A stretch of 64,000 nt of DNA, taken from Acidimicrobiales bacterium. GTDB lineage: Bacteria; Actinomycetota; Acidimicrobiia; Acidimicrobiales; Bog-793. Below the pieces are notes generated by a model. That model was given only the letters and a program-made list of their open reading frames with translations, did no database searches and was not told where the DNA came from. Shown piece after piece: positions 2,828 through 18,192 of the stretch. Where the stretch lies: NCBI GenBank assembly GCA_035294085.1, contig DATGLP010000004.1, positions 1 to 64,000 of the forward strand. The letters run 5' to 3'. Position numbers and translations under genes: made by a program. Position 1 is the stretch's first letter. Each line of letters starts with the position of its first letter.

Positions 2828-3916
2828 ATGTCCATGAGGTCACGGCGGCTCGGCGCCGCGGTCGGCGCCGTGCTGCTCGCGGCGACCGGCCTCGGCGTCG
2901 GCATCTCGATGACCGCGTCGGCGAGCAGCCACGGTAGCCACAAGACCACCCACAAGTCCACCTACCGGGTGGCGGTGCTCGAGCCGGGCACGGCGAACGA
3001 CGGCTCGTGGGGCCAGGCGGTCGACTCCGGCGCGCTCGCGGCCGGTCGAGCGACCGGCGCGAAGGTGACGCTCGTCGACGCGCTCGAGACGCCCGCCCAG
3101 TACCAGCAGCAGGGCGCGTCGTTCGCCTCGCACGGCTACAACCTCGTCATCATCGCCAACGGATCGGACCCGCAGACGGTCGTCGCGCTGGCGCACCAGT
3201 TCCCGCACACGTTCTTCTGCGAGACCGCGGCGACCATCAAGGTGAGGCCGAAGAACGTCTGCACGAACAACCTCACCTACTACGACGGTGACTTCCTCGC
3301 CGGGGCGCTCGCCGCGATGGTCAGCAGGACGAAGGTGCTCGGCGAGATCGGCGGCTACAGCTTCCCGCAGCTCAACTGGGAGATGAACGGCTTCTCGCTC
3401 GGCGCCCGCTACGTCGACCCGCGGATCAAGATCAAGTCGACCTACGTCAACACGTGGACCGACGTCAACGTGACGCGCAACGCCGCGAACGCCCAGATCG
3501 CGTCGGGCGCCGACGTCATCTTCTCGGCGACCGACCAGGCGACGCAGGGGATCTACGCCGCGGCGCAGACGAAGGGACACACCTACGCCATCTCGCAGTA
3601 CTTCGACACGCACCGGCAGGCGCCGAGCGTCGTGCTCACGAGCGTCCTGTTCAACCTGCAGGGCTCCGTCGGGAACCTCATCCGCCTCGGCGTCGCCGGC
3701 AAGCTGCGGAACGTGAACTACGAGACGACCTTCAACGACGGGGCGGGCCGCCTGGCGCCCTTCTACAACCTGGCGCCCAACCCGGTGACGCCGGCGATCC
3801 AGGCTCGGCTGCACAAGATCGAGCACCTGATCGCCACGGGCAAGATCGTCGTGCCGGCGCTCCCGAACGCGAACCAGGGGCTCCACTACAACGTCAGCCG
3901 CTTCCCGAAGGCCTGA
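2828..3916 (+). CDS. BMP family ABC transporter substrate-binding protein
   Basis: This 362-residue exported protein has a Sec signal peptide (basic M-S-M-R-S-R-R, hydrophobic core to about residue 27, A-S-A-S-S cleavage region) and no lipobox cysteine. The mature part matches the Bmp/Med family: a Y-R-V-A-V-L start, N-D-x-S-W-x-Q-A in the first ligand loop, G-Y-N-L-V-I-I-A-N-G, and the D-G-D-F-L-A-G-x-L-A-A-M segment. BMP proteins bind nucleosides, purines or similar N-heterocycles. An AAGGGGGGAG ribosome site lies 5 nt before the ATG at 2828. It is the first gene of the TetR-controlled operon and is followed by a strong hairpin, which would favour higher expression of this protein than of the membrane parts (5498-9113). 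Confidence 0.88.
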   Translation: MSMRSRRLGAAVGAVLLAATGLGVGISMTASASSHGSHKTTHKSTYRVAVLEPGTANDGSWGQAVDSGALAAGRATGAKVTLVDALETPAQYQQQGASFASHGYNLVIIANGSDPQTVVALAHQFPHTFFCETAATIKVRPKNVCTNNLTYYDGDFLAGALAAMVSRTKVLGEIGGYSFPQLNWEMNGFSLGARYVDPRIKIKSTYVNTWTDVNVTRNAANAQIASGADVIFSATDQATQGIYAAAQTKGHTYAISQYFDTHRQAPSVVLTSVLFNLQGSVGNLIRLGVAGKLRNVNYETTFNDGAGRLAPFYNLAPNPVTPAIQARLHKIEHLIATGKIVVPALPNANQGLHYNVSRFPKA

Positions 3917-3929
3917 GGTAGCGCTGCAG

Positions 3930-3975
3930 CTCCCCGGGGCGGCGGGTCCTCCCCGTCGCCCCGGGGAGGACCCGC
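3930..3975 (+). terminator. Two mutually exclusive GC-rich hairpins (attenuator-like)
   Basis: Two perfect stems compete for the same bases. One pairs 3930-3941 (CTCCCCGGGGCG) with 3957-3968 (12 bp). The other pairs 3942-3954 (GCGGGTCCTCCCC) with 3963-3975 (13 bp). They share 3963-3968, so only one can form at a time. No U-run follows. The element lies between the binding-protein gene and the rest of the operon, a usual place for differential expression by mRNA processing or partial termination. Real switching is inferred. Confidence 0.6.
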
Positions 3976-4072
3976 GTGGCGCCGGCCCGCGAGCCGAGGG
4001 CCACCCTGCCGTACCCGTCACGGCGCGCCTCGGCGCGCCGGCCAGTCCGAACCGAAGAAAGGAGCTGAGGAG

Positions 4073-5461
4073 ATGACGACGAGCGAGGCCGCCCAGCCGA
4101 GCGAGGGTCGCCGGGCGATCTGGCCCGGCAACATCCCGCCGCCAGCCATGCCCTACAGCCCGGCGATCACGGCGGGCGGCTGGGTCTTCGTCGCCGGCCA
4201 GCTCGCGAGCGACTACGAGAACGGCGTCGCCCCCGCGGCTCGCAACCCCGAGGGTGCCCCGTACCTGCACGACGAGCTCGAGCTGCAGTCCCGCTACGTC
4301 CTGTCGAACCTGAGCCGCACGCTCGAGGCGGCCGGGGCCGACATCCGGCGCGACCTCGTGCGCATCTACCAGTGGTTCACCTCGCCGTACCCGACGTACG
4401 AGGAGTTCGAGCAGGGCAACACCTGGCCGCGCATCTCCATCACGCCGTACCTGCGCACCCTCTACGGGGAGTTCGCCGTCGAGCGCCGGCCCGCCTCGAC
4501 CGGCATGGGCGTGCGCCAGCTGCTCGTCGCCGGCACGAAGGTGGAGGTCGACATGATCGCCATCCCGGCGCGCGAGGGCATGGTGCGCGAGGACGTGCCT
4601 GCGCCCGAAGGCGTGCCCGCACCCCTCGCCGGCTACTCGCCCGGCGTTCGCGCCGGCGACTGGGTCTTCCTCGCCGGCGAGATCCCGGTCGACTGGATGG
4701 GCGACTACGGGCGGTCGGAGCACTACGGCGAGCCCGGCGGCGTCGCCCTCGAGGCGCGCACGAACCCGTACTTCTGGTACGGGGTGCCCATCGAGGCGCA
4801 GACCGAGTACGTCCTTCGCAAGCTCGACCGGATCGCGCGCGCGGCGGGCAGCTCCCTCGAGCGCTGCGTGAAGGCGACGGTCTACCTCGGCCACCCGAAG
4901 GACTTCGCCGGCATGGACCGCGTCTGGCGCAGCTGGTTCCCGAGCAACCCGCCGGCGCGCGTCGTCATCCCGTACATGGGCCTCGGCGGCATGGGCAGCC
5001 GGATCGAGGTGGCCATGAAGCTGCTCCACAACGACTCGCCGCTGCGCATCGAGGCGATCACGGCCGACGACGCCGCCGAGCCCCTCGGCCACGAGCCGCA
5101 GGCCGTGAAGGCGGGCGACTTCGTCTTCTTCAGCACCCAGCTGCCCGGTCTCGGTGGCGGCCTCGCGCCGAACATGGTGCGACGCCCGGAGTTCCCCTAC
5201 TACGGGCTCGTGACGCGCGCCCAGGTCGACGGCGTGCTCGACAACGTGTCGAAGATCTGCTCGAAGGCGGGGACGAGCCTCGCGAACATCGTGCGCCGCC
5301 AGTGCTTCCACACGGACTTCACGGACTTCGCCGAGGCGATGGACGCCTGGGCCCGGCACTTCCCGAAGGACCCCCCTGCCTCGACGACGATCGAGATCGG
5401 CGGTCCCCTCTTCGTGCCGGGGGCCAAGTTCATCTACGACCTCATCGCCTATGCCCCCTGA
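4073..5461 (+). CDS. Fusion of three RidA (YjgF/YER057c/UK114) domains
   Basis: The 462-residue protein is built of three consecutive RidA-like units at about 25-165, 185-318 and 335-462, each with a G-x-x-V-F-x-x-G/S strand and a [KR]-[VIF]-x-[VY]-D/A-x-I-A-type final strand. RidA enzymes are homotrimers of about 130-residue chains that hydrolyse reactive enamines/imines or related ring-opened intermediates, so this chain could form a covalently joined pseudo-trimer. The catalytic Arg of the P-A-R motif is present only in the middle unit (Arg296); the first and third have Ser (142 and 437). The ATG follows AAAGGAGCTGAGGAG. It lies between the binding protein and ATPase genes of the importer, pointing to imine-type intermediates in the pathway. 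Confidence 0.85.
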   Translation: MTTSEAAQPSEGRRAIWPGNIPPPAMPYSPAITAGGWVFVAGQLASDYENGVAPAARNPEGAPYLHDELELQSRYVLSNLSRTLEAAGADIRRDLVRIYQWFTSPYPTYEEFEQGNTWPRISITPYLRTLYGEFAVERRPASTGMGVRQLLVAGTKVEVDMIAIPAREGMVREDVPAPEGVPAPLAGYSPGVRAGDWVFLAGEIPVDWMGDYGRSEHYGEPGGVALEARTNPYFWYGVPIEAQTEYVLRKLDRIARAAGSSLERCVKATVYLGHPKDFAGMDRVWRSWFPSNPPARVVIPYMGLGGMGSRIEVAMKLLHNDSPLRIEAITADDAAEPLGHEPQAVKAGDFVFFSTQLPGLGGGLAPNMVRRPEFPYYGLVTRAQVDGVLDNVSKICSKAGTSLANIVRRQCFHTDFTDFAEAMDAWARHFPKDPPASTTIEIGGPLFVPGAKFIYDLIAYAP

Positions 5462-5497
5462 TGCTCGGGGTCCTGACGGCAGCCGGGTGCGGCGACG

Positions 5498-7111
5498 GTG
5501 GTGACCACGGGTAGCGTCGGGCGGGAAGCGGCGCGGGAGGCCGCGCACGGCGCCCCGGCGCTCGCGATGGCCCAGATCTCGAAGCGCTTCGGCGCGAACC
5601 TCGTCCTCGACGGGGTCGACTTCGAGGTGCGCGCCGGGGAGGTCCACGCGCTCCTCGGCGAGAACGGCGCAGGCAAGACGACGCTCATGCGCATCGCGAA
5701 CGGTCTCGAGACCCGCGACGCCGGCACGATCAGCGTGCGGGGCGTGCCGGTGCCGATGAGCTCGCCGGCCGAGGCCATCGCCCGCGGCGTCGCCATGGTG
5801 CACCAGCACTTCATGCTGGTGGGCAACCTGACGGTCGCCGAGAACGTCGTCCTCGGCACGAAGGGCCGGCACCTCCACCCCTTCGTCAGTCGCTCGGTGG
5901 TGCGCGAGGTCGAGGCGGTCGCGGCGAGCTACTCGATCGAGATCGACGCCCGGCGGCGCGTCGACGAGCTGTCGGTCGACGAGCAGGCCAAGGTCGAGAT
6001 CGTGAAGGCGCTCCACCGGGGAGCGGACGTGCTCGTCCTCGACGAGCCGACCTCCTCGCTCGGCCCGAGGCAGATCGAGGAGCTCTTCGCCGTCGTGCGC
6101 ACCATCTCGGCGGCGGGCATCGCCGTCGTCCTCGTCACCCACCGCCTCGGGGAGATCAAGCTCGTCTCCGAGCGCGTCACCGTGCTTCGCGACGGGAAGG
6201 TCGCCGACGCGGGCGCCACGGCGGACTTCACCGAGGCGGCGCTCGCCCGCGCGATGGTCGGCCGGGAGGTGGCCCGCGCCCGCCCGGCTGCGCCGGCACC
6301 GTCGCTGCCCGCGCCCGAGGCGCGCCTTCGGGTCGAGGACCTCGTCGTGCGCGCCGGGCGGGAGGCCCCGGCGCTCGACGGCGTCTCCCTCGCGGCACCG
6401 GCCGGGCGGGTCCTCGGCATCGTCGGGGTCGAGGGCAACGGGCAGACCGAGCTGCTCGAGGTGCTCGCCGGCCTGCGCCGGCCGAGCTCGGGGCGCGTCC
6501 TGCTCGACGGCGAGGACGTGACGGGCCTCGCGCCAGTCGAGCGCCGCCGGCGCGGGATCGTGACGATCAGCGGCGACCGCCACCGCTGGGACATCGTCCA
6601 GGGGCTCACGATCGCGGAGAACCTGGCGCTCCACGACATCGCCGCCGGGGCCTTCCGAGGTCGCAGCCGGCTCATCGCCTGGCGCGAGGTGCGGCGTCAC
6701 GCCGAGCGGCTGGTCGAGGAGTTCGACGTGCGGCCGCGGCGGGCCGACGCGCGCATCGACCAGCTGTCGGGGGGGAACCAGCAGAAGGTCGTCATCGCTC
6801 GCGCCGTCGAGGGCCGCCCCGCCGTGCTCGTCCTCGGGCAGCCGACGCGCGGCCTCGACATCGGCGCGCGCGAGTTCGTCCACGAGCAGGTCCTCTCGGC
6901 GCGCGCCGCGGGCACGGCGGTCCTCCTCCTCAGCTACGACCTCGAGGAGCTCTTCGACCTGTCCGACGAGATCATCGTGCTGTTCCGCGGCGCCATCAGC
7001 TACCGCAGCTCGCGCGCCGAGGCGCGCCTCGAGGAGGTGGGCGAGGCGATGACCGGGGTCGTCGGTGCCCGGCCCGCAGCCGCGGCGGCGGGCAGGCGGG
7101 AGGTGCCGTGA
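5498..7111 (+). CDS. BMP-type ABC transporter ATP-binding protein (two ATPase domains)
   Basis: This 537-residue protein carries two ABC ATPase domains, as in sugar and nucleoside importers of the RbsA/NupO class. The first domain has Walker A G-E-N-G-A-G-K-T-T (54-62), an atypical signature (L-S-V-D-E-Q) and Walker B L-V-L-D-E-P. The second has a degenerate Walker A (G-V-E-G-N-G-Q-T-E), a proper L-S-G-G-N-Q-Q signature and L-V-L-G-Q-P, the usual asymmetry in this family. It would energise the permeases that follow; its stop overlaps the next start (GTGA). Start GTG at 5498 or 5501; the ribosome site is weak. Confidence 0.88.
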   Translation: MVTTGSVGREAAREAAHGAPALAMAQISKRFGANLVLDGVDFEVRAGEVHALLGENGAGKTTLMRIANGLETRDAGTISVRGVPVPMSSPAEAIARGVAMVHQHFMLVGNLTVAENVVLGTKGRHLHPFVSRSVVREVEAVAASYSIEIDARRRVDELSVDEQAKVEIVKALHRGADVLVLDEPTSSLGPRQIEELFAVVRTISAAGIAVVLVTHRLGEIKLVSERVTVLRDGKVADAGATADFTEAALARAMVGREVARARPAAPAPSLPAPEARLRVEDLVVRAGREAPALDGVSLAAPAGRVLGIVGVEGNGQTELLEVLAGLRRPSSGRVLLDGEDVTGLAPVERRRRGIVTISGDRHRWDIVQGLTIAENLALHDIAAGAFRGRSRLIAWREVRRHAERLVEEFDVRPRRADARIDQLSGGNQQKVVIARAVEGRPAVLVLGQPTRGLDIGAREFVHEQVLSARAAGTAVLLLSYDLEELFDLSDEIIVLFRGAISYRSSRAEARLEEVGEAMTGVVGARPAAAAAGRREVP

Positions 7112-8157
7112 CGGTCATCGGGACCGTCGCGGCGGGCACCGACCGCCTCGGCGGCTCCGGCCTCGAGCGGGCGGCGCGCGTCGTCCTCCCGCTCGTCGGG
7201 GCGTTCGCCGTCATCTGCGCGGTGATCGCCGGGCTCGGCGCGAACCCCTTCACCGTGCTCGGCTCGATGGTCACGGGCTCGCTCGGCTCGCAGTACGACC
7301 TCGCCGAGACGCTCATGGTGACGATGCCGCTCGTCCTCTGCGGGCTGGCGGCCGCGATCCCGTTCTCGGCGGGGCTGTGGAACATCGGCGGCGACGGCCA
7401 GCTCTACGTCGGCGCGGTCGCGTCGGTGCTCGTCGGCCTGACGATCGGCACGCGCGTGCCCGGCACGCTCTTGTCCTGCGTGTGCGTCCTGGCCGGCGTG
7501 GCGGCCGGCTGCCTCTGGGCGCTGCTCGCCGCGGCGGTGAAGATCGCCGTGGGGGGCAACGAGGTGATCGTCACGCTGATGCTCAACCTCCTCGCCGGCC
7601 TGGCGGCCGACTACGTCGTCACCGGTCCGTGGGCCCAGGGCGTCTCCCCCCAGACGCGCTCCATCCCGAGCGGCGCGACCTTCAGCTCCTTCTGGCAGTC
7701 GGGCTTCAACGTCGGCTTCTTCGTCGCCGTCGCGGTCGCGCTCGCCTTCGGGGTGTTCATGTCGAGCACGAGGACCGGCTTCGGCATCCGGGCGTCGGGG
7801 CGCAACCTCGACGCGACGCGCCTCGCGGGCTTCCGGGTCGTGCGACTGTGGCTGGCGGCCTTCGGGCTCGGGGGGGCCTGCGCCGGCCTCGCCGGCGCCC
7901 TCCTCGTCGTGGCGGTGCACGGCGCGCTCATCCCCGGGATGGGCGAGCAGTACGGCTACACGGGGATCGCCGTCGCGCTGCTCGCCGGCCTGCGCCCCCG
8001 CCTCGTCATCCCGGCCGCGCTCTTCTTCGCCATCGTCGAGGTCGGCGGCTCGAGCCTCTCCGCGAGCGCCAACGTCTCGACCGCCATCTCCTACGTCATC
8101 GAGGGCGTGATCGTGATCGCGCTCCTCGCCTTCCGGGCGATCCGGGTGCGCACGTGA
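7108..8157 (+). CDS. BMP-type ABC transporter permease, first subunit
   Basis: This 349-residue hydrophobic protein of the BPD_transp_2 type has about eight to ten membrane segments. Typical motifs include G-L-W-N-I-G-G-D-G-Q-L-Y (residues about 88-100) and G-G-N-E-V-I-V-T-L-M-L-N, the latter in the loop that contacts the ATPase in YufP/NupP-type permeases. It forms a heterodimeric channel with the next gene product. Translation is coupled on both sides by GTGA overlaps. Confidence 0.87.
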   Translation: MTVIGTVAAGTDRLGGSGLERAARVVLPLVGAFAVICAVIAGLGANPFTVLGSMVTGSLGSQYDLAETLMVTMPLVLCGLAAAIPFSAGLWNIGGDGQLYVGAVASVLVGLTIGTRVPGTLLSCVCVLAGVAAGCLWALLAAAVKIAVGGNEVIVTLMLNLLAGLAADYVVTGPWAQGVSPQTRSIPSGATFSSFWQSGFNVGFFVAVAVALAFGVFMSSTRTGFGIRASGRNLDATRLAGFRVVRLWLAAFGLGGACAGLAGALLVVAVHGALIPGMGEQYGYTGIAVALLAGLRPRLVIPAALFFAIVEVGGSSLSASANVSTAISYVIEGVIVIALLAFRAIRVRT

Positions 8158-9113
8158 GCACGAGCGGCGTCGTCGAAGCGGTCGTCACCGACTCGGTGAC
8201 CCTCATGGTCCCCGTGCTGTGGGCGGCGGCGGGCGAGGCGGTCGGCGAGGAGGCCGGGGTCCTCAACATCGGCATCGAGGGCGTCATGCTGCTCGGCGCG
8301 TTCGCGGCGGCCGCCGGCGTGCGCGCCACCGGCAGCCTGTGGAACGGGTGGTTCCTCTCGATCCCGCTCGGGATCGTCGCCGGCGTCGTCCTGTGGTTCC
8401 TCTACGTCTACCGATCGTGCAACCAGATCGTGACGGGCATCCTCTTCAACCTCTTCGCACTCGGCGTGACGACGGCGCTCTACGAGCGGTACCTGACCGG
8501 GGCCGGGACCGTGACGACGGTGCCGAACCTCCACGTGCCGGGCCTCGGATCGATCCCCGGCCTCGGCCCCGCGCTGTTCGACCAGACGCCGTTCTTCTAC
8601 CTCGCCGTGCTCGGCTGCGCCCTGCTCTACTACCTCCTGTGGCGGAGCTGGTTCGGGCTGTCGCTGCGCGCCACCGGCGAGCGGCCCGACGTGAGCGCCG
8701 CGGCCGGGCTGTCGGTGCTGCGGCTCCGGTTCGTCGCGGTGGTGGTCGCCTGCGTGTTCGCCGCGCTCGGAGGGGCGACGCTCACGGTGATCTCGACCGG
8801 GGGCTTCACCATCGACATGACCTCGGGGCAGGGCTTCATCGCCCTCGCGATCGTCATCCTCGGGCGGTGGAACCCGCTGTGGATCATCCTCGGGGCGTGG
8901 ATCTTCGGGCTGGCCGACGCGCTCCAGTTCCAGCTCGTCACGATCGGCTCCCTCGCCTCGGTCCCGCACGACGCGTGGCTCGCGTTCCCCTACGTGATCA
9001 CCATCCTCGTCGTCGTCTGGGCCCGGGGCGCGCGCTACCCGGCCTCCACCGGCCTGCCCTACGAGCCGGTGCGCCGTCGGCGGGGGCTCGTCGCCCAGCT
9101 GTTCCGGACCTGA
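8154..9113 (+). CDS. BMP-type ABC transporter permease, second subunit
   Basis: This 319-residue multi-pass protein is the partner of the preceding permease. It shows the family motif E-A-G-V-L-N-I-G-I-E-G near residue 33 and a cytoplasmic R-A-T-G-E-R-P-D-V-S-A-A-A-G-L loop, as in YufQ/NupQ-type subunits. The GTG at 8154 overlaps the previous stop. A strong ribosome site 36 nt later begins the enzyme part of the operon. Confidence 0.87.
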   Translation: MSTSGVVEAVVTDSVTLMVPVLWAAAGEAVGEEAGVLNIGIEGVMLLGAFAAAAGVRATGSLWNGWFLSIPLGIVAGVVLWFLYVYRSCNQIVTGILFNLFALGVTTALYERYLTGAGTVTTVPNLHVPGLGSIPGLGPALFDQTPFFYLAVLGCALLYYLLWRSWFGLSLRATGERPDVSAAAGLSVLRLRFVAVVVACVFAALGGATLTVISTGGFTIDMTSGQGFIALAIVILGRWNPLWIILGAWIFGLADALQFQLVTIGSLASVPHDAWLAFPYVITILVVVWARGARYPASTGLPYEPVRRRRGLVAQLFRT

Positions 9114-9149: not shown

Positions 9150-9887
9150 ATGCCCGAGGAGCACCGTCGCCCACCGGCGGTCGTCGACCGTAGCGAGATG
9201 CGCCGCGCCCTCGAGGGGGCGCTGCGGATCGAGCCGGCGCGCACCGCGGTCATCACCATCGACTGCCACCGGGGCCACCTCGACCCCTCGATCGCCACGA
9301 TGCCCGTGCGCGCCGAGCTCGCCGCCCAGGTGGTGTCGACGGTGGCCCGGCTCCTGCGGCGAGCCCGCGAGGCCCGTCTCCCGGTGATCCACGTCATCTT
9401 GCAGAACCGGCTGCTGCCGTCGGGGACCGTCGAGTCGATGGTGAACCCGTTCTGGCGGGCGCTCGAGGACGCGAAGCAGTCGCTCACGCCGACGCTCCCG
9501 AGCACGGTGCGCGGCCACAACCTCGCGGGCTCGCCCCAGACCGAGCTCATGCCCGAGCTCGGACCCGAGCCGGGGGACCTCGTGATCGACACGAAGCGCC
9601 GGCTGTCCATCTTCCGCGAGACCGACCTCGACCTGCTGCTCAAGGACCTCGGGATCGACACCGTGGTGCTCTGCGGCATCAACACGAACACGTGCGTGCT
9701 CTGCGCGGCCTTCGAGGCGTTCAACCGTGACCTGCGGGTCGTCGTCGTGTCGGACGGCGTCGCCTCGATGTACGGTGACGACCTCCACTTCTTCGGGCTG
9801 GAGAACGTGGCGCGCTGCCTCGGGTGGGTGGTCACCTGCGACGAGCTTCTGGCCCGGCTGCCCGAGAAGGTGGGCCTGCCCGCCTAG
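9150..9887 (+). CDS. Isochorismatase-family cysteine hydrolase
   Basis: This 245-residue protein has a complete isochorismatase-fold triad: Asp38 (I-T-I-D-C-H-R-G-H), Lys149 (D-T-K-R-R) and Cys182 (N-T-N-T-C). Family members such as ureidoacrylate amidase, maleamate amidase, biuret hydrolase and N-carbamoylsarcosine amidase hydrolyse amide or ureide bonds. A very good ribosome site (GGAAGGAGGAGG) precedes the ATG. In this operon it most likely releases ammonia or carbamate from a ring-opened intermediate. A second member of the family ends the same operon; which acts on which amide cannot be told. Confidence 0.85.
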   Translation: MPEEHRRPPAVVDRSEMRRALEGALRIEPARTAVITIDCHRGHLDPSIATMPVRAELAAQVVSTVARLLRRAREARLPVIHVILQNRLLPSGTVESMVNPFWRALEDAKQSLTPTLPSTVRGHNLAGSPQTELMPELGPEPGDLVIDTKRRLSIFRETDLDLLLKDLGIDTVVLCGINTNTCVLCAAFEAFNRDLRVVVVSDGVASMYGDDLHFFGLENVARCLGWVVTCDELLARLPEKVGLPA

Positions 9888-9961: not shown

Positions 9962-11707
9962 GTGGCTGACGCTGCATTCGACGTCCGGGACGGGATGCGG
10001 ATCCTGTGGGACGCGATCATCGTGATGGACGACGGCCTGGAGCTTCGCGCCGACGTCTTCCTTCCCCTCGAGGAGGGCCGCTACCCGGTCCTGCTCTCCT
10101 ACGGACCGTACGCGAAGGGCCTCGAGTTCAAGCAGGGCTACCCGAGCGCGTGGCAGCGCATGGTCGAGCAGCACCCGGACGTCGCGGCGGGCTCGTCGAA
10201 CAAGTACCAGTCCTGGGAGGTCGCCGACCCGGAGAAGTGGGTGCCGCACGGCTACGCGTGCGTGCGCGTCGACTCGCGCGGCGCGGGCTGCTCGCCTGGC
10301 GTGCTCGACCCGCTGTCCGCGCGCGAGGCGCGCGACCTCTACCACTGCGTCGAGTGGTGCGGGACGCAGCCGTGGAGCAACGGGAAGGTGGGCATCACCG
10401 GCATCTCCTACTACGCGATGAACCAGTGGCAGGTCGGCGCGCTCCAGCCGCCGCACCTCGCGGCGCTGTGCCCGTGGGAGGGCGCGGCCGACTGGTACCG
10501 GGATGCGACGCACCACGGGGGCATCCTCTCGACCTTCTGGGCGAACTGGTACGACATGCAGGTGAAGACCGTCCAGTACGGCCTCGGCGAGCGGGGGGCG
10601 CGCAGCGCCGTAACCGGCCGGCCGGTCTGCGGCGACGTCACGCTGAGCGACGAGGAGCTCGAGAAGAACCGCGTCGACTTCGGCGAGCAGATCCGTAGCC
10701 ACCCGCTCATCGACGACTACTACCGCGAGCGGATCCCGGACTTCTCGAAGATCACCGTGCCCCTCTTCTCCTGTGGGAACTGGGGAGGCCAGGGGCTGCA
10801 CCTGCGCGGCAACGTCGAGGGCTACCTGCGTGCCGGCTCGAGCCAGAAGTGGCTCGAGATGCACGGCATCGAGCACTGGACGCACTACTACACCGACTAC
10901 GGGCGCGAGCTGCAGAAGCGCTTCTTCGACTACTTCCTGCGCGGCGAGGACACCGGCTGGTCGAGCCAGCCGCCCGTCCTGCTCAACATCCGCCACGTCG
11001 ACGGCACCTTCGTGCCGCGCGCCGAGCAGGAGTGGCCGATCGCCCGCACGCGCTGGACGAAGCTCTACCTCGACGCGGCGAGCGAGCGCCTGGTCGCAGG
11101 CGAGGTGGCGGGCGAGTCCGAGCGCGAGTTCGAGGCCCTCGGCGACCCGCTCACCTTCTACGGCGACCCGCTCGAGGCCGAGACCGAGATCACCGGCCCG
11201 ATCGCGGTGAAGCTCTTCGTGTCGTCCTCGACCGACGACGCCGACCTGTTCGTCGTGCTCCGGCTCTTCGACCCCGATGGCGAGGAGGTCGTCTTCCAGG
11301 GGGCGATCGACCCGCACACGCCGATCGCCCAGGGGTGGCTGCGCGTCAGCCACCGCGCCCTCGACCCTGTCGAGAGCCGCGAGTACCGCCCCTACCACCC
11401 GCACACCGAGCTGCTCCCGGTCGTGCCGGGCGAGGTCTACGAGGTCGACATCGAGGTCCTGCCCACCTGCGTCGTCGCCCCCGCCGGCTACCGCTTCGCG
11501 CTGAGCATCCAGGGCCACGACTACGTCTACCCGAAGGCCGGCGGGGACCGGCTGTCGAACTTCAAGAACGTGCTCACCGGCTGCGGGCCGTTCCTCCACG
11601 ACGACCCCGTCGACCGCCCGGCGCCGCGCTACGCGGGCCGGACGCGCCTGCACACCGGCGGGGCGCGCCAGGCGTACGTGCTGCTCCCCGTCGTTCCGGC
11701 ACGCTGA
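9962..11707 (+). CDS. CocE/NonD family hydrolase (X-Pro dipeptidyl-peptidase S15-like)
   Basis: This 581-residue protein has an alpha/beta-hydrolase core with the nucleophile elbow G-I-S-Y (Ser149) and a likely catalytic His in G-I-E-H-W-T-H, followed by the C-terminal jelly-roll domain of CocE and X-Pro peptidases (from about 370; P-L-E-A-E-T-E-I-T-G-P). Relatives hydrolyse esters (cocaine esterase), glutaryl-type amides or dipeptides. GTG at 9962 was chosen because AGGAGG lies 4 nt upstream; an extension further upstream has no family similarity. The last base of the stop is the first base of the next start. Confidence 0.83.
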   Translation: MADAAFDVRDGMRILWDAIIVMDDGLELRADVFLPLEEGRYPVLLSYGPYAKGLEFKQGYPSAWQRMVEQHPDVAAGSSNKYQSWEVADPEKWVPHGYACVRVDSRGAGCSPGVLDPLSAREARDLYHCVEWCGTQPWSNGKVGITGISYYAMNQWQVGALQPPHLAALCPWEGAADWYRDATHHGGILSTFWANWYDMQVKTVQYGLGERGARSAVTGRPVCGDVTLSDEELEKNRVDFGEQIRSHPLIDDYYRERIPDFSKITVPLFSCGNWGGQGLHLRGNVEGYLRAGSSQKWLEMHGIEHWTHYYTDYGRELQKRFFDYFLRGEDTGWSSQPPVLLNIRHVDGTFVPRAEQEWPIARTRWTKLYLDAASERLVAGEVAGESEREFEALGDPLTFYGDPLEAETEITGPIAVKLFVSSSTDDADLFVVLRLFDPDGEEVVFQGAIDPHTPIAQGWLRVSHRALDPVESREYRPYHPHTELLPVVPGEVYEVDIEVLPTCVVAPAGYRFALSIQGHDYVYPKAGGDRLSNFKNVLTGCGPFLHDDPVDRPAPRYAGRTRLHTGGARQAYVLLPVVPAR

Positions 11708-12495
11708 TGGCGGCGAGCAGCGCGACCTCCACCGCGCGCTACCCCGACCTCGCGGGGCGCGTCGCGATCGTGACCGGCGGCTCGAAGGGGATCGGCGCGG
11801 CGACCTGCCGCCAGCTCGCGGCGAACGGCGCCGCCGTCGCCGTCGTCGCGCGGGGCAAGGAGGCGGTCGACACCCTCGTCCACGAGCTCGAGGCCACCGG
11901 CGCGCGCGCCGTCGGCGTGCTCGCCGACTGCGCCGACCGGGCGTCCGTCGAGCAGATGGTGGCGAGCGTCACCGAGGCGCTCGGGCCGCCGGACGTCTGC
12001 ATGGCCTTCGCCGGCGGCTTCCACGCGACGACGCCGATCCTCGAGATCGGCGACGAGGAGTGGCGCCGGGTGCTCGACGACAACCTCACGGCGACCTTCC
12101 TCACGGTGCAGGCCGTCCTGCGCCCCATGCTCGAGCGCGGCCGGGGCTCGATCGTGACGATGGCCTCGAACGCCGCGCGCCTCCTCGACATCCCGCTCAC
12201 CGCCTCGTACGCCGCCGCGAAGGCGGGGGTCGTCATGCTCACGCGCCACGTGGCGATGGAGGTGGGACCTCGCGGCGTTCGCGTCAACGCCATCGCGCCA
12301 GCGACGACGCTCACCGAGCGCGTCGCGACGACGCTCTCGCCCGAGGCCCTGGCGCACGTCGAGTCCTCCGCCCCGCTGCGGCGCATCGGCCTCCCCGAGG
12401 ACAGCGCGTCAGCCGCGCTCTTCCTCGCCTCGGACGTCTCCTCGTGGCTGACCGGCATCACCATCGACGTCGCCGGCGGCCGGGTGATGATCTGA
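11707..12495 (+). CDS. Short-chain dehydrogenase/reductase (SDR)
   Basis: This classical SDR of 262 residues has the cofactor motif T-G-G-S-K-G-I-G (23-30), Asn126, catalytic Ser154, and Tyr168-x-x-x-Lys172 (Y-A-A-A-K). It would oxidise or reduce an alcohol/carbonyl intermediate with NAD(P). The ATG overlaps the previous stop by one base, so it is translationally coupled to the CocE-like gene. The substrate is unknown. Confidence 0.88.
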   Translation: MAASSATSTARYPDLAGRVAIVTGGSKGIGAATCRQLAANGAAVAVVARGKEAVDTLVHELEATGARAVGVLADCADRASVEQMVASVTEALGPPDVCMAFAGGFHATTPILEIGDEEWRRVLDDNLTATFLTVQAVLRPMLERGRGSIVTMASNAARLLDIPLTASYAAAKAGVVMLTRHVAMEVGPRGVRVNAIAPATTLTERVATTLSPEALAHVESSAPLRRIGLPEDSASAALFLASDVSSWLTGITIDVAGGRVMI

Positions 12496-12496: not shown

Positions 12497-13453
12497 GTGC
12501 GCGTCGACGTCCACAACCACGTCATCCCCCGGCCGCTCCTCGACCTCGTGCGCGCGGAGGCCGCCTTCGGGGTCGACGTGGCTGACGGGTACTGGCGCGG
12601 CCCGGACCACGTCGACTTCCCCCTCGTCGACTCCTTCTCCGTCCCGGCGGCCCGTCTCGACGACCTCGAGCGGGCGGGCCTCGAGGGCGCGGTCGTCTCG
12701 CCCGCACCCTGCCTGTTCCCCTACCGCCTCGACCCCGAGCGCGGCGAGCGCTGGTGCCGGGTGGTGAACGAGGGCCTCGCCGAGTTCTGCGCCACCGCCC
12801 CCGAGCGGCTCCGCTTCATGGCCGACGTGCCGCTCCAGGACGTCGACCTCGCCTGCCAGCTCACCGAGGAGGCGGCCGGCCTCGGGGCGGTCGCCGTGGC
12901 CGTCGGCACGTCGGTCGCCGGCGCCCGCCTCGACGAGGCGCCCTACCGGCCGTTCCTCGCCCTCCTGGAGCGCCTGCGCCTGCCGCTGCTCGTCCACCCG
13001 GCCTTCAACGACGCGCACCCGGCGCTCGCCCCGTACTACCTCCAGAACGTCATCGGCAACCCGCTCGAGACGACGATCGTCGCCGAGCGCCTGATGGCCT
13101 CCGGCGCGCTCGGGGCGCACCCCGGCCTCACGGTCATCCTCGTGCACGGCGGTGGCTTCCTGCCCTACCAGCTCGACCGCCTCCGCCACGCCTCGCAGGT
13201 GCGCGAGGAGTTCGCCGCGCCCGTCGCCACCGACGAGCTGCTCTCGCAGCTGCGCTTCGACACCGTCTTGCACGGGCGCGCCGCGCTCGCGTTCCTCGTC
13301 GAGCGCGTCGGCGTGGATCGCGTCCTCCTCGGCACCGACATGCCCTTCGACATGGCGGTCGCCGCGCCCTTCGACGCGCTGCGTGCGGCGGTCGGCGACG
13401 AGGCGGCGCGTGTCGTCGCCGAGGAGAACCCGACGAGGCTGTTCTGCCGATGA
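12497..13453 (+). CDS. Amidohydrolase_2 (ACMSD-like) metal-dependent hydrolase/decarboxylase
   Basis: This 318-residue TIM-barrel protein of the aminocarboxymuconate-semialdehyde decarboxylase superfamily has metal-site motifs D-V-H-N-H near the N-terminus (His6, His8), L-L-V-H-P, a G-G-G-F-x-P-Y-Q-x-x-R segment and L-L-G-T-D-M-P-F-D near the end. Members decarboxylate or hydrolyse ring-cleavage products and hydroxylated aromatic acids. GTG start, one base after the SDR stop. The position between an SDR and a cupin suits a ring-cleavage step. Confidence 0.82.
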   Translation: MRVDVHNHVIPRPLLDLVRAEAAFGVDVADGYWRGPDHVDFPLVDSFSVPAARLDDLERAGLEGAVVSPAPCLFPYRLDPERGERWCRVVNEGLAEFCATAPERLRFMADVPLQDVDLACQLTEEAAGLGAVAVAVGTSVAGARLDEAPYRPFLALLERLRLPLLVHPAFNDAHPALAPYYLQNVIGNPLETTIVAERLMASGALGAHPGLTVILVHGGGFLPYQLDRLRHASQVREEFAAPVATDELLSQLRFDTVLHGRAALAFLVERVGVDRVLLGTDMPFDMAVAAPFDALRAAVGDEAARVVAEENPTRLFCR

Positions 13454-13527
13454 GGACGACGCACGGGCCCCGACGGCGACCGCCCGAGGCCCCGAGCCAC
13501 CCGAGACGACCGAGGAGGAGGCGAGCG

Positions 13528-13917
13528 ATGGCCGATGCCGCATCGAAGCCGCCGAGCGTGACGGGCACCTACGACGTCGGCGACTACGCCGAGGAGCTGG
13601 CCGCCGCGCCGCGCAACCACGAGATTGGGACCTCGCTGTGGTTCGAGAACGACCGGGTGCGCGTCTTCGAGGTGCGCCTCGAGCCGGGCGAGCGTGGTGC
13701 CTTCCACGTCCACGACCGGCCCTACCTCTGGACCGTCGTGGAGGCCGGCCGGGGACTCCAGCGCCTGGCGGACGGGACCTTCGCCGTCCGCGACTACGAG
13801 CTCGGGGACACGCGCTTCCTCGAGCACTCGCCCGAGCACGCGCTCGTGCACGACCTCGAGAACGTGGGGACGACGACGCTGCGCTTCGTGACGGTCGAGC
13901 TGCGCGACGGGGGTTGA
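13528..13917 (+). CDS. Cupin-domain protein
   Basis: This 129-residue single cupin barrel has motif 1 around G-A-F-H-V-H-D-R-P-Y at residues 54-63 and motif 2 around H-S-P-E-H-A-L-V-H-D. Small cupins in catabolic operons act as dioxygenases, isomerases or lyases, but some only bind ligands. The ATG at 13528 has AGGAGGAGG upstream; the 74 nt before it hold no other gene. Start and family are clear, function is not. Confidence 0.75.
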   Translation: MADAASKPPSVTGTYDVGDYAEELAAAPRNHEIGTSLWFENDRVRVFEVRLEPGERGAFHVHDRPYLWTVVEAGRGLQRLADGTFAVRDYELGDTRFLEHSPEHALVHDLENVGTTTLRFVTVELRDGG

Positions 13918-13921
13918 CGCG

Positions 13922-15106
13922 ATGGGAGCGTCGGGTCCTCGGCTGCGCCGCGCGCTCGTCGTCGGCGGCTCCCTCGGGGGGCTCAGCGCGGCGAACTGGC
14001 TGCGCGACGCCGGCTTCGCGGTCGAGGTCCTCGAGCGCTCCTCGCACCTGCTCGAGGACCGCGGCGTGGGGATCGTGCTCCACCGCTCGACGGTCCGCTA
14101 CCTCCTCGAGTGCCGAGGCGTCGACCTCGACTCGATGAGCCTGCGCGTCTCGCGACTGCGCTACCTCGACCGTGCCGGCGGCGTCGTCGCCGACGCCGCG
14201 ATCCGGCTGCGCTTCGCCGCCTACGGCGCCCTGTACCGGGAGCTGCTGGCCGCCTTCGGCACCGAGCACTACCACCTCGGGCACGAGGTCGTCTCGGTGC
14301 GCGACCGGGGCGAGCTCGCCGAGGTCGTCCTCGCCGACGGCACGACGCGCTCCGCCGAGCTCGTCGTCTGCGCCGACGGGATCCGCTCGGGCGCGCGCCG
14401 GGCGCTACTGCCCGAGGTGCAGGCGAGCTTCGCCGGCTACGTCGCCTGGCGGGGGGTGGCCCCGCTCACCGCCCTCGGCCCGGCGGCAGCCGGGTTGCTC
14501 GGCGACGCCATCACCTACACGATCATGGACCGCAGCCACCTGCTGACCTACCCCATCGCGAGCGGCGAGGGTCGCCTCGTGAACTGGGTCTGGTACCACA
14601 ACGTCGAGACGGCCGCCGAGCTCGAGGCGCTCCTCACCGACGCCGAGGGGCGCGTGCACGACCTGACCCTGCCCGCCGGCTTCGCCCCGGCCGAGCGCGT
14701 CGCGGCGCTGCGAGCCCGGGCCCGAGGCGTCCTCCACGACGTCGTCGTCGAGACGATCGAGAAGACGTCCGAGCCCTTCGTCCAGGTGGTGCTCGACGTC
14801 GAGCCGAGCCGCCTCGCCTTCGGTCGGATCTGCCTCCTCGGGGACGCCGGCTTCGTCGCTCGCCCGCACGCCGCGGCGGGCACCGCGAAGGCGTGCGAGG
14901 ACGCCTGGCACCTCGCCGCGGCGCTCGTGAAGCAAGAGGACGTGCCCGCGGCTCTCGCCGCCTGGGAGCCGGCCGCCCTCGAGCTCGGCGCCAACCTCGT
15001 CCGCCGCTCGCGCGAGGCGGGCATCCGGTCGCAGTTCGACGGGACGTGGCAGGTCGGCGACCCGCTCCCCTTCGGGCTCTACGAGGTGGGCGACAGTGAG
15101 CTCTGA
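13922..15106 (+). CDS. FAD-dependent monooxygenase, 2,6-dihydroxypyridine 3-monooxygenase-like
   Basis: This 394-residue class A flavoprotein hydroxylase has the FAD-binding G-G-S-L-G-G (15-20), C-A-D-G-I-R-S in the middle, and the second FAD motif L-G-D-A-G-F followed by R-P-H-A-A-A-G-T-A-K-A. The R-P-H-A-A-A-G stretch and the T-W/A-W-R-G-V region resemble, from memory of the family, 2,6-dihydroxypyridine 3-hydroxylase of nicotine degradation rather than p-hydroxybenzoate hydroxylase. Hydroxylating a hydroxylated N-heteroaromatic ring would prepare it for opening. It is four bases after the cupin gene. The exact substrate is inferred. Confidence 0.75.
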   Translation: MGASGPRLRRALVVGGSLGGLSAANWLRDAGFAVEVLERSSHLLEDRGVGIVLHRSTVRYLLECRGVDLDSMSLRVSRLRYLDRAGGVVADAAIRLRFAAYGALYRELLAAFGTEHYHLGHEVVSVRDRGELAEVVLADGTTRSAELVVCADGIRSGARRALLPEVQASFAGYVAWRGVAPLTALGPAAAGLLGDAITYTIMDRSHLLTYPIASGEGRLVNWVWYHNVETAAELEALLTDAEGRVHDLTLPAGFAPAERVAALRARARGVLHDVVVETIEKTSEPFVQVVLDVEPSRLAFGRICLLGDAGFVARPHAAAGTAKACEDAWHLAAALVKQEDVPAALAAWEPAALELGANLVRRSREAGIRSQFDGTWQVGDPLPFGLYEVGDSEL

Positions 15107-15986
15107 TCCGGGCGCCCGACCGGTCGGCGTCGTGGGGCTGGGCACGATGGGCGCCGCCCTCGCTCGCCACCTGCTCGCCGCGGGCTACGACGTCGTCGGC
15201 TACGACGTGCGGCCGGAGGCCGCGCTCGAGCTCGAGCCGGCGGGCCTGCGGCGTGCCGCCGACGTCGCCGAGCTCGCCCGGCAGGTGCCGGTCCTCCTCA
15301 CCTCGCTCCCGTCGGTCGGCGCGCTCGAGGCGGTCGTCGAGGCGCTCGCCGGCTCGAAGGTTGGGGGGATCGACCTCGTGGAGGCGAGCACGCTGCCGCT
15401 TCCGGCGAAGGAGGCGGCGCGCGCCCGGCTCGCCTCCTGCCGGATCAGCGTCCTCGACTGCCCGATCAGCGGGACGGGGGCGCAGATGGCGCGGCGCGAC
15501 GCGGTCGTCTACGCGAGCGGCGACGCCGACGCGCTCGAGCGCTGCCGCCCCTACCTCGAGGCGGCCTTCCGCACCGTCTACCTCGTCGGGGGCTTCGGCG
15601 ACGGGTCTCGGCTCAAGTTCGTGGCGAACCTCCTCGTCGCCGTCCACAACGTCGTGGCTGGCGAGGCGATCGCCCTCGCCCGCCTAAGCGGCCTCGATCC
15701 CGCAGCCGTGCTCGGCGCGCTCGCCGACGGCGCCGGGAGCTCGCGCATGCTCGAGGTGCGCGGCCCGATGATGGTCGAGCGCCGCTACCAGCCGGCGACG
15801 ATGCGGGTCGACCTGTTCAAGAAGGACCTCTTGATCATCGGCGAGTTCGCCCGCTCGCTCGGCGCGTCGACGCCCACCTTCGACGCCTGCCTCGAGGTCT
15901 ACGAGGAGGCGCTGCGGCGCTCGCTCGGCGCCGAGGATACCGCGAGCGTCCACGAGGTCGTCCTCGACCCCGGTTCCGACCGTTGA
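15096..15986 (+). CDS. NAD(P)-dependent oxidoreductase, 3-hydroxyisobutyrate dehydrogenase family
   Basis: This 296-residue beta-hydroxyacid dehydrogenase has the Rossmann motif G-L-G-T-M-G (14-19), D-C-P-I-S-G near 121-126 and catalytic Lys174 (S-R-L-K-F-V-A-N). Family enzymes act on 3-hydroxyisobutyrate, tartronate semialdehyde, 2-(hydroxymethyl)glutarate and similar acids. The GTG overlaps the end of the monooxygenase gene by 11 nt. A late step on an aliphatic hydroxy acid is likely. Confidence 0.82.
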   Translation: MSSDPGARPVGVVGLGTMGAALARHLLAAGYDVVGYDVRPEAALELEPAGLRRAADVAELARQVPVLLTSLPSVGALEAVVEALAGSKVGGIDLVEASTLPLPAKEAARARLASCRISVLDCPISGTGAQMARRDAVVYASGDADALERCRPYLEAAFRTVYLVGGFGDGSRLKFVANLLVAVHNVVAGEAIALARLSGLDPAAVLGALADGAGSSRMLEVRGPMMVERRYQPATMRVDLFKKDLLIIGEFARSLGASTPTFDACLEVYEEALRRSLGAEDTASVHEVVLDPGSDR

Positions 15987-17338
15987 GCGCCTTCGACCTC
16001 GCGCTGCGCGGCGGGACCGTCGTCTCGGGGACCGGGCGCGCCGAGCTCGACGTGTACGTGCTCGGCGAGCGCATCGCCGCGCTGGGTCCCCGGGGCGCAC
16101 CCGCCGAGGCGCGCTCGACGCTCGACGCGAGCGGCTGCTTCGTGCTGCCGGGCATGGTCGACACGCACGTGCACCTCATGGAGCCGGGGGACCCGAGCCG
16201 CGAGGACTTCCCGACCGGCACCGCGGCCGCGCTGCGCCAGGGGGTGACGACGATCGTCGAGCACACCCACAGCTGGCCGGTCACCTCGCCCGAGCGCTAC
16301 GCCGAGAAGCTCGCCCACCTGGCCGGCCGCTCGCACGTCGACTTCGGCCTCGCCGCCCACGTCTGGCCGGACCGCGACGACCTCGAGGCGCTGTGGCACG
16401 CCGGCGTCGTCTTCTTCAAGATCTTCACCTGCTCGACCCACGGCGTGCCGGGTCTCACCGGGGAGCGGCTGGCGGCGGCCTTCGAGGCGATCGGCCGCTT
16501 CGGCGGCAGCTGCCTCGTGCACTGCGAGGACGAGCTCCTCACCGCCGGCGCCGAGAACGTGCTGCGCGAGCTCGGGCGCGACGACCCGGGGATCCTCCCC
16601 GAGTGGCGCTCGCGCGAGGCCGAGCTCGCCGCCGTCCACCTCGTCGGCCTGCTGTCGCGCGCCTCGGGGGCGTCGGTCACCGTCGCCCACGCGAGCAGCG
16701 CCGAGGTGCTCGAGACGATCGAGTGGCACCGCCGCCACGGCGCACCGCTCGTCGCCGAGACCTGTCCGCAGTACCTGCTGCTGTGGGAGCGAGAGGTGCA
16801 CGAGCACGGGGCGCTGCGCAAGTTCACGCCGCCGGCGCGCCTTCGCTCCACGACGGACGAGGAGGCGATGTGGGCCGCCTTCAACGCCGGCGCGGTCCAC
16901 CACCTCTCGACCGACCACGCGCCCTCGACCCTCGCGCAGAAGGCGGCGGGGTCGATCTGGGACGTCCACTTCGGCCTCCCGGGCCTCGACACGACGCTGC
17001 CGCTCATGCTCGACGCGGCGCTGCGGGGGAGGACGTCGCTCGAGCGCGTCGTCGAGGCGTACGCGAGCGCCCCGGCGCGCCGCTACGGCTTGCGGCGCAA
17101 GGGGCGTGTCGCCCCCGGCTTCGACGCGGACCTCGTCGTCGTCGACCCCCGGGCGCGCCGGGTCCTCTCGGACGCCGCCGTCGTGTCGAAGGCGGGCTGG
17201 ACGCCGTACGCCGGGCGGGAGGTCGTCGGCGCGGTGACCGTCACGGTGCTGCGCGGCCGGGTCGTCGCGCGAGACGGCGAGCTCACCGAGGAGCCCCGCG
17301 GGCGCCACCTCCCCGGGCCGGGTGCCCCGCCGCGCTGA
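15983..17338 (+). CDS. Dihydropyrimidinase/allantoinase-like cyclic amidohydrolase
   Basis: This 451-residue urease-superfamily amidohydrolase has a binuclear metal site: D-T-H-V-H (His62, His64), the probably carboxylated Lys146 (V-F-F-K-I-F), His180 (L-V-H-C-E), a further His in V-A-H-A-S-S and Asp in S-T-D-H-A-P-S. Hydantoinases, dihydropyrimidinases and allantoinases open cyclic ureides or imides. The TTG start overlaps the previous stop (TTGA). Together with the isochorismatases this is the best sign that the pathway substrate contains a cyclic amide or ureide. Confidence 0.83.
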   Translation: MSAFDLALRGGTVVSGTGRAELDVYVLGERIAALGPRGAPAEARSTLDASGCFVLPGMVDTHVHLMEPGDPSREDFPTGTAAALRQGVTTIVEHTHSWPVTSPERYAEKLAHLAGRSHVDFGLAAHVWPDRDDLEALWHAGVVFFKIFTCSTHGVPGLTGERLAAAFEAIGRFGGSCLVHCEDELLTAGAENVLRELGRDDPGILPEWRSREAELAAVHLVGLLSRASGASVTVAHASSAEVLETIEWHRRHGAPLVAETCPQYLLLWEREVHEHGALRKFTPPARLRSTTDEEAMWAAFNAGAVHHLSTDHAPSTLAQKAAGSIWDVHFGLPGLDTTLPLMLDAALRGRTSLERVVEAYASAPARRYGLRRKGRVAPGFDADLVVVDPRARRVLSDAAVVSKAGWTPYAGREVVGAVTVTVLRGRVVARDGELTEEPRGRHLPGPGAPPR

Positions 17339-17379
17339 CGGAGGGCGCCGAGACCAGCCGAGCAGGGAGGGAGGGCCTC

Positions 17380-18192
17380 ATGCAGACCGAGATGTACTGC
17401 TACCTCGAGGACCGCGAGCGGCGCGTCCTGCCGTCGAACGAGGCGTTCGAACGCTGGCTCGACCCCGATCGCAGCGCCATCGCCTGCATCGACATGTACC
17501 GCGGTCACGTCGGGCCCGACGAGCAGCTCACCTGCCCGGCGCCTCGGGCGCGCGCCAAGATCCCCGCCCACAACCTCTTCCACCGCCTCGCCCGCGACGT
17601 CGGCGTCCCCGTCATCCACGTCCAGCACTGGCAGCGCTACGGCGGCATCGACGACGCGAACTCCCGGCAGTTCAACCGCGGCGCCAACTGGCGCGTGCTC
17701 TACGAGCTCTACCTGCCGCCGAACCCGCTCATGCTCGAGCACTCGTGGGAGGGCACGAGGTGGCTCGACCTCATGGTCGAGGAGGCGCCGGGTGACTACT
17801 ACGTGCGCACGAAGAAGCGTCTCTCCGCCTTCTACCCGACGGACCTCGAGTTCCTGCTGCGCCAGCTCGACGTGAAGAACCTCGTCATCACGGGCACCTA
17901 CACGGACGCCTGCGACCTGTCGACCGCCTTCGACGCGGCGAACCGGGACCTGCGCGTGATCGTGCCGCGCGACGTCGTCGCCGGCTACAGCGCCGAGGCG
18001 GAGCACGCCGCGCTCTTGATCGTGTCGCTGCACCTCGGCCTCGTCGTCGACGCGCCGGCGCTCCTCGCGGAGTGGTACGCGAGGAAGGGACGCGAGCTGC
18101 CCGAGGCGCTGCGCTCGTGCACCGACATCTCGCTCGTCGCCGGCACCCTGGAGGACGGTGACGCGCCCGCGCCGGGTACCGGCAGGCGCTGA
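17380..18192 (+). CDS. Isochorismatase-family cysteine hydrolase, second copy
   Basis: This 270-residue protein again has the triad Asp38 (A-C-I-D-M-Y-R-G-H), Lys145 (R-T-K-K-R-L) and Cys178 (Y-T-D-A-C). It is clearly divergent from the protein encoded at 9150-9887 and carries a C-terminal tail of about 40 residues. The ATG was chosen because GGGAGGGAGGG stands just upstream. It is the last gene of the TetR-controlled operon and is followed by a short hairpin. Confidence 0.83.
   Translation: MQTEMYCYLEDRERRVLPSNEAFERWLDPDRSAIACIDMYRGHVGPDEQLTCPAPRARAKIPAHNLFHRLARDVGVPVIHVQHWQRYGGIDDANSRQFNRGANWRVLYELYLPPNPLMLEHSWEGTRWLDLMVEEAPGDYYVRTKKRLSAFYPTDLEFLLRQLDVKNLVITGTYTDACDLSTAFDAANRDLRVIVPRDVVAGYSAEAEHAALLIVSLHLGLVVDAPALLAEWYARKGRELPEALRSCTDISLVAGTLEDGDAPAPGTGRR

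Follow-up and report, generated by a model that had tools for sequence, protein, structure and literature searches.

A run of 14 genes near the start of a contig from an uncultured actinobacterium (class Acidimicrobiia, order Acidimicrobiales) appears to encode the uptake of a nitrogen-containing ring compound and its breakdown as a source of nitrogen and carbon. The stretch analysed, hereafter the window, comprises 64,000 nucleotides that begin where contig DATGLP010000004.1 begins (assembly GCA_035294085.1, a genome of 2.4 Mb in 31 contigs), and the genes all lie on its + strand between positions 2828 and 18192, with a TetR-family gene diverging from them (open reading frame coordinates and Pfam). 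Judged from sequence, it is somewhat probable that they form an inducible catabolic operon for a flat N-heteroaromatic compound, most likely a ring of the 2,6-dioxygenated pyridine or pyrimidine type.

The distances between successive genes are 156, 36, -4, -4, 36, about 74, -1, 1, 74, 4, -11, -4 and 41 nt; only the first exceeds 80 nt, and in five cases adjacent genes overlap, by 1-11 nt. A previous reading of the same DNA, made without database searches (the sequence-only reading), had named the families of this run, and every one was found at its coordinates and on one strand by Pfam, NCBIfam and the open reading frames.

Conservation of the gene set

Relatives of the operon were traced through its triple RidA protein (3x-RidA; 4073..5461, +), which was scanned in one pass against 84,980 species genomes. 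Seven close relatives were found (61-63%), six of them in metagenome-assembled genomes (MAGs) of Acidimicrobiia/Acidimicrobiales and one in a genome named only as a bacterium. The genes for the binding protein and both permeases of the importer adjoin the triple RidA gene in all seven, and the same seven genomes encode amidase 2 (one copy, 67-73%), the CocE hydrolase (62-65%) and the cyclic amidohydrolase (53-62%), while the flavoenzyme is present in six. Conserved co-occurrence, which the sequence-only reading had proposed as a check, was therefore borne out. Amidase 2 occurs in just 4 of the 395 genomes of the class, and all four carry the triple RidA.

Linkage extends beyond these neighbours. 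Importer, amidase 2, CocE hydrolase, cyclic amidohydrolase and flavoenzyme share one contig in three genomes (G455, G452 and G453). In G455, a complete chromosome, and in G452 they lie together with the triple RidA and an amidohydrolase-2 (AH2) gene within about 37 kb, or about 45 kb when the 3-hydroxyisobutyrate dehydrogenase-like (HIBADH-like) gene is added, interspersed with XDH-type hydroxylases, a nitrilase, an AtzD-family ring-opening amidohydrolase, a DUF1989 protein, a single RidA and creatinase-like M24 proteins. A 40-kb contig of G453 holds everything from the importer through the cyclic amidohydrolase, including triple RidA, amidase 2, CocE, flavoenzyme and AH2, and one contig of G450 carries amidase 2, CocE, flavoenzyme, AH2 and cyclic amidohydrolase. 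In a second lineage (f34), binding protein, amidase 2 and triple RidA are neighbours in G508, G750 and G456/G727, and another G456 contig groups CocE, HIBADH and cyclic amidohydrolase. The gene set recurs in at least three lineages of Acidimicrobiia, a class with few cultured members, and identification of a single substrate would improve the annotation of many environmental genomes. Relatives of amidase 2 on Klebsiella, Pantoea and Rhizobium plasmids (41-43%) and of the CocE hydrolase on Shinella and Variovorax plasmids (54-56%) were set aside, the former standing in other gene contexts and the latter among unrelated neighbours.

The AtzD-family amidohydrolase of the G455 and G452 superloci (L056, 5284-6378), located near XDH-type hydroxylases, scores above the cyanuric-acid-hydrolase cut-off (417 against 360 bits); the natural substrate of this enzyme of uncultured Acidimicrobiia may be a pyrimidine such as barbiturate.

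A different distribution was observed for the small cupin (13528..13917, +; 129 aa, PF07883 below gathering, with conserved H60, H62 and H108). It is found in 29 of the 395 class genomes, and, leaving aside the window genome, 17 of these 28 have the flavoenzyme gene next to it. Cupin (28 genomes) and cyclic amidohydrolase (17 genomes) coincide in 12 (N=394, hypergeometric 6e-12, a value not corrected for phylogeny). In G661 the cyclic amidohydrolase, cupin (71%), flavoenzyme (44%) and AH2 genes are grouped with a different, Liv-type transporter and without a triple RidA, and on a Rhodococcus opacus plasmid the flavoenzyme, cupin and AH2 genes are consecutive. In five sponge-type or marine MAGs (among G450-G455), which have partial 120-nt cupin matches at most and no full-length one, the cluster does not include a cupin. 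By its gene content the window operon is therefore a union of two modules, one comprising importer, triple RidA and amidase 2 and the other flavoenzyme, cupin, AH2 and cyclic amidohydrolase.

More distant arrangements were noted on plasmids. In Haloarcula and Haladaptatus (L058, L059, L094) a cyclic amidohydrolase (42%) lies by an asparaginase, accompanied by a short-chain dehydrogenase (SDR), AH2 or flavoenzyme, an isochorismatase-fold protein and a methylmalonate-semialdehyde dehydrogenase. A plasmid of Methylobacterium sp. NMS14P from Coffea arabica root (L060) carries a flavoenzyme of this family, a cupin, uraD, two uraH, an XDH trio and a Liv-type transporter, a cluster whose function is probably methylxanthine C-8 oxidation.

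Flavoenzyme and importer

One indication of the substrate class comes from the FAD monooxygenase (13922..15106, +). It passes the PRK07236 subfamily model of 2,6-dihydroxypyridine hydroxylases (404 bits, cut-off 333), and its best solved relative is 2,6-dihydroxypyridine hydroxylase 2vou (E 1e-64, full-length alignment of 222 bits). The 2vou histidines in 'GHLIAY' and 'RPHAAAG' are matched by H206 and H316, a pair which we infer to be the two active-site histidines proposed in the literature. The description of this protein as a dihydroxypyridine-monooxygenase-like flavoenzyme is accordingly upheld by subfamily model, nearest structure and both histidines. Aligned with the urate hydroxylase HpxO, the window enzyme has His at both positions where HpxO has Arg204 and Asp293; the first is presumably Arg204 in HpxO numbering, the residue differing (Arg/Gln) between the 3rp6 and 3rp8 chains. 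The His/His pair is kept in 21 of 21 distinct cluster-linked homologues of Acidimicrobiia and Rhodococcus, and other members of the family have Gln/His (Methylobacterium plasmid, by uraD/uraH; also haloarchaeal) or Glu/His (Pantoea). The signature, which 2vou shares, makes a 2,6-dioxygenated substrate resembling a pyridine or pyrimidine more likely than urate.

The same residues bear on a purine or methylurate route, in which the flavoenzyme would hydroxylate urate or methylurate and the cyclic amidohydrolase would act as a (methyl)allantoinase, followed by ureide amidases and a tartronate-semialdehyde-type reductase. Such a route would agree with the guanine- and adenine-binding relatives of the importer, with allantoinase as the best-scoring model of the cyclic amidohydrolase (297 bits) and with the Methylobacterium coffee-root plasmid, where a relative of the cupin lies by a same-family flavoenzyme and the uraD, uraH and XDH genes. 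Clusters for caffeine C-8 oxidation (cdhABC, tmuM, tmuH, tmuD) likewise contain a putative trimethylallantoinase (PMC4408171). However, the HpxO model is reached with only 108.6 bits against a cut-off of 500, the allantoinase model also stays below its cut-off (297 against 358), and the operon has no gene of the uraH/uraD type. This explanation gained weight from the Methylobacterium cluster and lost it again through the His/His signature (the two positions are Arg and Asp in HpxO, and the first is Gln in the Methylobacterium enzyme); we regard it as unlikely.

The importer is a complete BMP/PnrA set (Pfam), consisting of a substrate-binding protein (2828..3916, +; PF02608, 6e-40), a duplicated ATPase (5498..7111, +; PF00005 twice) and two permeases (7108..8157 and 8154..9113, both + and PF02653). 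The best solved relatives of the binding protein are AtzT (6pi5, 7e-26) and the adenine-bound 3s99, and the ligands held by its nearest solved relatives are guanine, 2-hydroxyatrazine and adenine; AtzT binds guanine with a Kd of 0.11 uM and 2-hydroxyatrazine with 2.2 uM (PMC6834077). The aromatic sandwich of AtzT is kept in the window protein, Trp replacing Tyr45 and Trp194 being retained. Of the proposal that the importer belongs to a purine/nucleoside class, heterocycle import is backed by family placement and base-holding relatives, and the label is better narrowed to 'free base / hydroxy-azine class'. A putative vitamin B6 transporter is the nearest NCBIfam model for binding protein, ATPase and permease, all three falling far below cut-off (NF047927, 90.6/400; NF047929, 146.7/400; NF047930, 408.5/670 bits).

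Candidate enzymes of ring opening and nitrogen release, and flanking genes

The cyclic amidohydrolase (15983..17338, +; NCBIfam) belongs to the allantoinase/hydantoinase/dihydroorotase superfamily and is the putative ring-opening enzyme. The six ligands of the binuclear metal site of these enzymes (HxH, carboxylated Lys, His, His, Asp), H62, H64, K146, H180, H236 and D311, are invariant among 16 sequences, which confirms the family call of the sequence-only reading. The protein scores best with allantoinase TIGR03178 (297.2 bits, cut-off 357.9) and misses D-hydantoinase/dihydropyrimidinase TIGR02033 (249.3/393.3). The two isochorismatase-fold amidases (9150..9887 and 17380..18192, both +) were also correctly described as having intact triads, both matching PF00857 and keeping Asp-Lys-Cys, with D38, K145 and C178 invariant in amidase 2. 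Neither reaches the biuret hydrolase model BiuH NF050097 (61.4 and 47.2 bits, cut-off 370); amidase 1 is 42% identical to a haloarchaeal plasmid protein encoded near a cyclic amidohydrolase homologue.

The triple RidA contains three PF01042 stretches in one chain (Pfam), as the sequence-only reading had recognized, and passes a Rid subfamily model (NCBIfam). In 8 of 8 sequences the catalytic Arg (Arg105 of TdcF) is kept in the middle domain only (R296), with Ser142 and Ser437 in the other two, and for this reason one working site per pseudo-trimer appears to be the simplest reading. The protein is probably a single-chain pseudo-trimer: an AlphaFold model built from 8 sequences, of moderate quality (pTM 0.74, mean pLDDT only 61.7) and used for the overall three-domain arrangement only, has as its top Foldseek matches chorismatases, of which a single chain spans all three model domains, and RutC. 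No match to the triple RidA was found among plasmids and viral contigs. Divergent triple RidA genes (33-34%) lie by other transporters at L050 5536-6834 (G508) and L003 1348-2667 (G104), which suggests that 3x-RidA genes are repeatedly associated with import operons; the G104 protein (33%) was rejected as a relative of this cluster, its neighbours being a TPP enzyme and an ABC transporter of another kind.

These folds raise the question of a Rut-like pyrimidine route, in which a FAD oxygenase, a RutB-like amidase, a RutC-like RidA, a hydrolase and a semialdehyde reductase would act on uracil, thymine or barbiturate. The fold types do succeed one another as they do in Rut, the triple RidA has RutC among its best structural matches, a CoA-acylating methylmalonate-semialdehyde dehydrogenase adjoins the haloarchaeal cyclic amidohydrolase, and a ring-opening enzyme of the AtzD/barbiturase family occurs in relatives. 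This likeness holds on paper, but RutB (60.5/378 bits) and RutC (86.3/169) stay below cut-off, the oxygenase is of the PHBH type rather than the luciferase type of RutA, and an AtzD-type enzyme is missing from the window operon, which argues that the operon is not a Rut member and makes the route rather improbable.

The remaining enzymes are an S15/CocE serine hydrolase of the CocE/NonD type (9962..11707, +; likely GTG start at 9962 in a frame open from 9824), which passes the subfamily model TIGR00976 (267 bits, cut-off 66); an SDR (11707..12495, +; PF13561); an ACMSD-like AH2 protein, putatively a decarboxylase or hydrolase (12497..13453, +; PF04909), with ACMSD as nearest solved relative (1e-33) and no NCBIfam match at 1e-10; and an oxidoreductase resembling 3-hydroxyisobutyrate and L-threonate dehydrogenases (15096..15986, +; PF03446 and PF14833), which is below every NCBIfam equivalog cut-off.

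Flavoenzymes, AH2-type decarboxylases, alpha/beta hydrolases and amidases are also employed in picolinate and nicotinate degradation, and a pyridine-carboxylate or B6 compound (nicotinate, picolinate, homarine, pyridoxine-like) could be processed by ring hydroxylation, AH2 decarboxylation, deformylation and a maleamate-type amidase. The enzyme types of the nicotinate route have been described (PMC6122326). The enzyme inventory and the B6 transporter as nearest importer model speak for this possibility; on the other hand, the transporter models are far from their cut-offs (91/400, 409/670 and 147/400), the operon has no gene for 2,5-dihydroxypyridine dioxygenase, MHPCO or a pyridoxolactonase-type enzyme, MHPCO is absent among the PDB matches of the flavoenzyme at 1e-8, and these routes have no cyclic amidohydrolase. 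We hold it to be about as doubtful as the Rut-like route. The pathways for urate, pyrimidines (Rut type), B6 and picolinate all fit poorly, either because scores stay below the model cut-offs or because genes are missing. No enzyme of the operon scores above an NCBIfam equivalog cut-off belonging to a known pathway; the parts are thus of known kinds, but curated models do not assign the operon to any known pathway.

A non-heterocyclic role must also be weighed, namely that amides, cyclic dipeptides or antibiotics are salvaged or detoxified, in which case the heterocycle reading would have been borrowed from the best-known members of each family. Peptide-like and lactam compounds are also among the substrates of CocE/S15 enzymes and cyclic amidohydrolases, and the tetracycline destructases are distantly related to the flavoenzyme. 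Against this, the 2,6-dihydroxypyridine hydroxylase subfamily match with its His pair, the base-binding relatives of the BMP protein and the XDH-type hydroxylases of related clusters all point to N-heteroaromatics, so that such a role is very improbable.

TetR control of the operon is likely from gene anatomy. The regulator (1886..2581, -; TetR_N and TetR_C_11, Pfam) starts with the ATG at 2581 and diverges from the binding-protein gene. Between the two lies a sigma-70-like promoter, TTGACC-17-TATGCT (2625..2653, +; motif scan), the only such match in 18.6 kb (0.3 expected), and directly upstream of it a candidate TetR operator, ACGGAACAGAACGTTCCGT (2605..2623), a perfect 7+7 inverted repeat that is a unique exact match in the window.

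Two flanking genes may be associated. A PPDK_N/PEP-utiliser gene upstream of the operon (248..1762, +), perhaps cut by the contig start, has homologues (33%) that in G455, G452 and G454 immediately precede the HIBADH-like gene. An asparaginase-family amidase (18236..19276, -; PF00710/PF17763), convergent with the operon, is a possible member; two haloarchaeal plasmids carry an asparaginase gene next to their homologue of the cyclic amidohydrolase. Further downstream, positions 20176-33768 (+) hold another cluster of catabolic appearance, which has a separate SsuABC/NMT1-type transporter and GntR/FCD regulator, together with Amidohydro_2, gamma-glutamyltranspeptidase family, creatinase-like M24, HpaB-type flavin monooxygenase and UbiD-type decarboxylase genes.

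Proposed route and known systems

On the favoured reading of an operon for a 2,6-dioxygenated N-heteroaromatic ring, the compound would be taken up by the BMP protein and ABC importer and hydroxylated by the FAD monooxygenase in the manner of 2,6-dihydroxypyridine 3-hydroxylase. The cyclic amidohydrolase would open the lactam or imide formed by hydroxylation, with the cupin and the ACMSD-like enzyme contributing an isomerisation or decarboxylation beside this step. Amide or carbamoyl nitrogen would then be removed by the isochorismatase-fold amidases, perhaps with the asparaginase, and the resulting enamine or imine hydrolysed by the triple RidA, after which the CocE-type hydrolase, the SDR and the HIBADH-like dehydrogenase could carry the carbon remainder into central metabolism. 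TetR would repress the divergent promoter until an inducer binds. Gene content, order, co-occurrence, family placement and catalytic residues are observed; the order of reactions follows from the chemistry of these enzyme families and, like each reaction, the substrate class and the regulation, is inferred throughout. The sequence-only reading had envisaged hydroxylation, opening of a cyclic amide and sequential loss of ammonia; hydroxylation and ring opening are supported by family placement and intact active-site residues, and ammonia may be lost in sequence. The possibility that a molybdenum hydroxylase carries out the first step was discarded for the window organism, as no XDH-type enzyme of this kind was found in its own genome.

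Several observations weigh against this interpretation. The folds of the cyclic amidohydrolase, isochorismatase and CocE proteins accept many substrates. Triple RidA, amidase 2, CocE and cyclic amidohydrolase are much better conserved across loci than the flavoenzyme (38-43%), HIBADH (44-46%) and AH2 protein (33%), and the loci may therefore differ in substrate. Relatives hold XDH-type molybdenum hydroxylases that the window genome lacks, so their pathways are not identical to that of the window, and in some genomes neither a triple RidA nor a flavoenzyme gene is found near that of the cyclic amidohydrolase. Hydrogen-bonding contacts of AtzT are altered in the BMP protein (Glu165 to Gln, Ser97 to Asn, Asn218 to Ala and Asn220 to Asp, equivalences that were mapped by motif in the alignment and carry some uncertainty); with the aromatic sandwich kept and these residues changed, a flat ring other than guanine is the probable ligand. 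As for the regulation, an equal-sized repeat occurred in 589 of 2000 shuffles (29%) of the 245-nt gap between the TetR and BMP genes, which is not beyond chance and weakens the repeat as independent proof of a TetR operator.

A bolder proposal, which we advance only tentatively, is that the operon encodes an undescribed hydrolytic N-heteroaromatic route, in which a flavoenzyme of the hydroxypyridine type works with a cyclic amidohydrolase dedicated to ring opening and with a dedicated single-chain triple RidA, the latter being a pathway enzyme beyond any part in damage control. We know of no combination of flavin hydroxylation with allantoinase-like hydrolytic ring opening for pyridine- or pyrimidine-type rings, and literature searches for this gene combination yielded no paper describing the set.

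Among described systems, the nicotine route of Arthrobacter nicotinovorans is alike in its 2,6-dihydroxypyridine 3-hydroxylase (2vou) by subfamily model, full-length alignment and both histidines. In contrast to that system, the window gene sits with a cyclic amidohydrolase, a triple RidA and a BMP importer, in a genome without molybdenum hydroxylase genes. In the nicotine route the fate of 2,3,6-trihydroxypyridine is unclear (PMC6122326), and the hydrolytic route, if true, could hold the missing steps after a product of this type. The caffeine C-8/urate pathway (PMC4408171) shares a flavoenzyme, an allantoinase-like enzyme and, in one such cluster, a related cupin, whereas the operon is without HIU hydrolase or OHCU decarboxylase and the HpxO catalytic residues are not kept. 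3x-RidA proteins have been described before, such as EF_0115, and the natural substrate of most Rid subfamilies is unknown (PMC4433059). The window protein resembles such proteins in its three fused Rid domains, presumed to form a covalent trimer; it is distinguished by its place in a putative catabolic operon with an importer and by an essential Arg in the middle domain only, and an identified substrate of this operon would give a triple RidA a defined pathway substrate.

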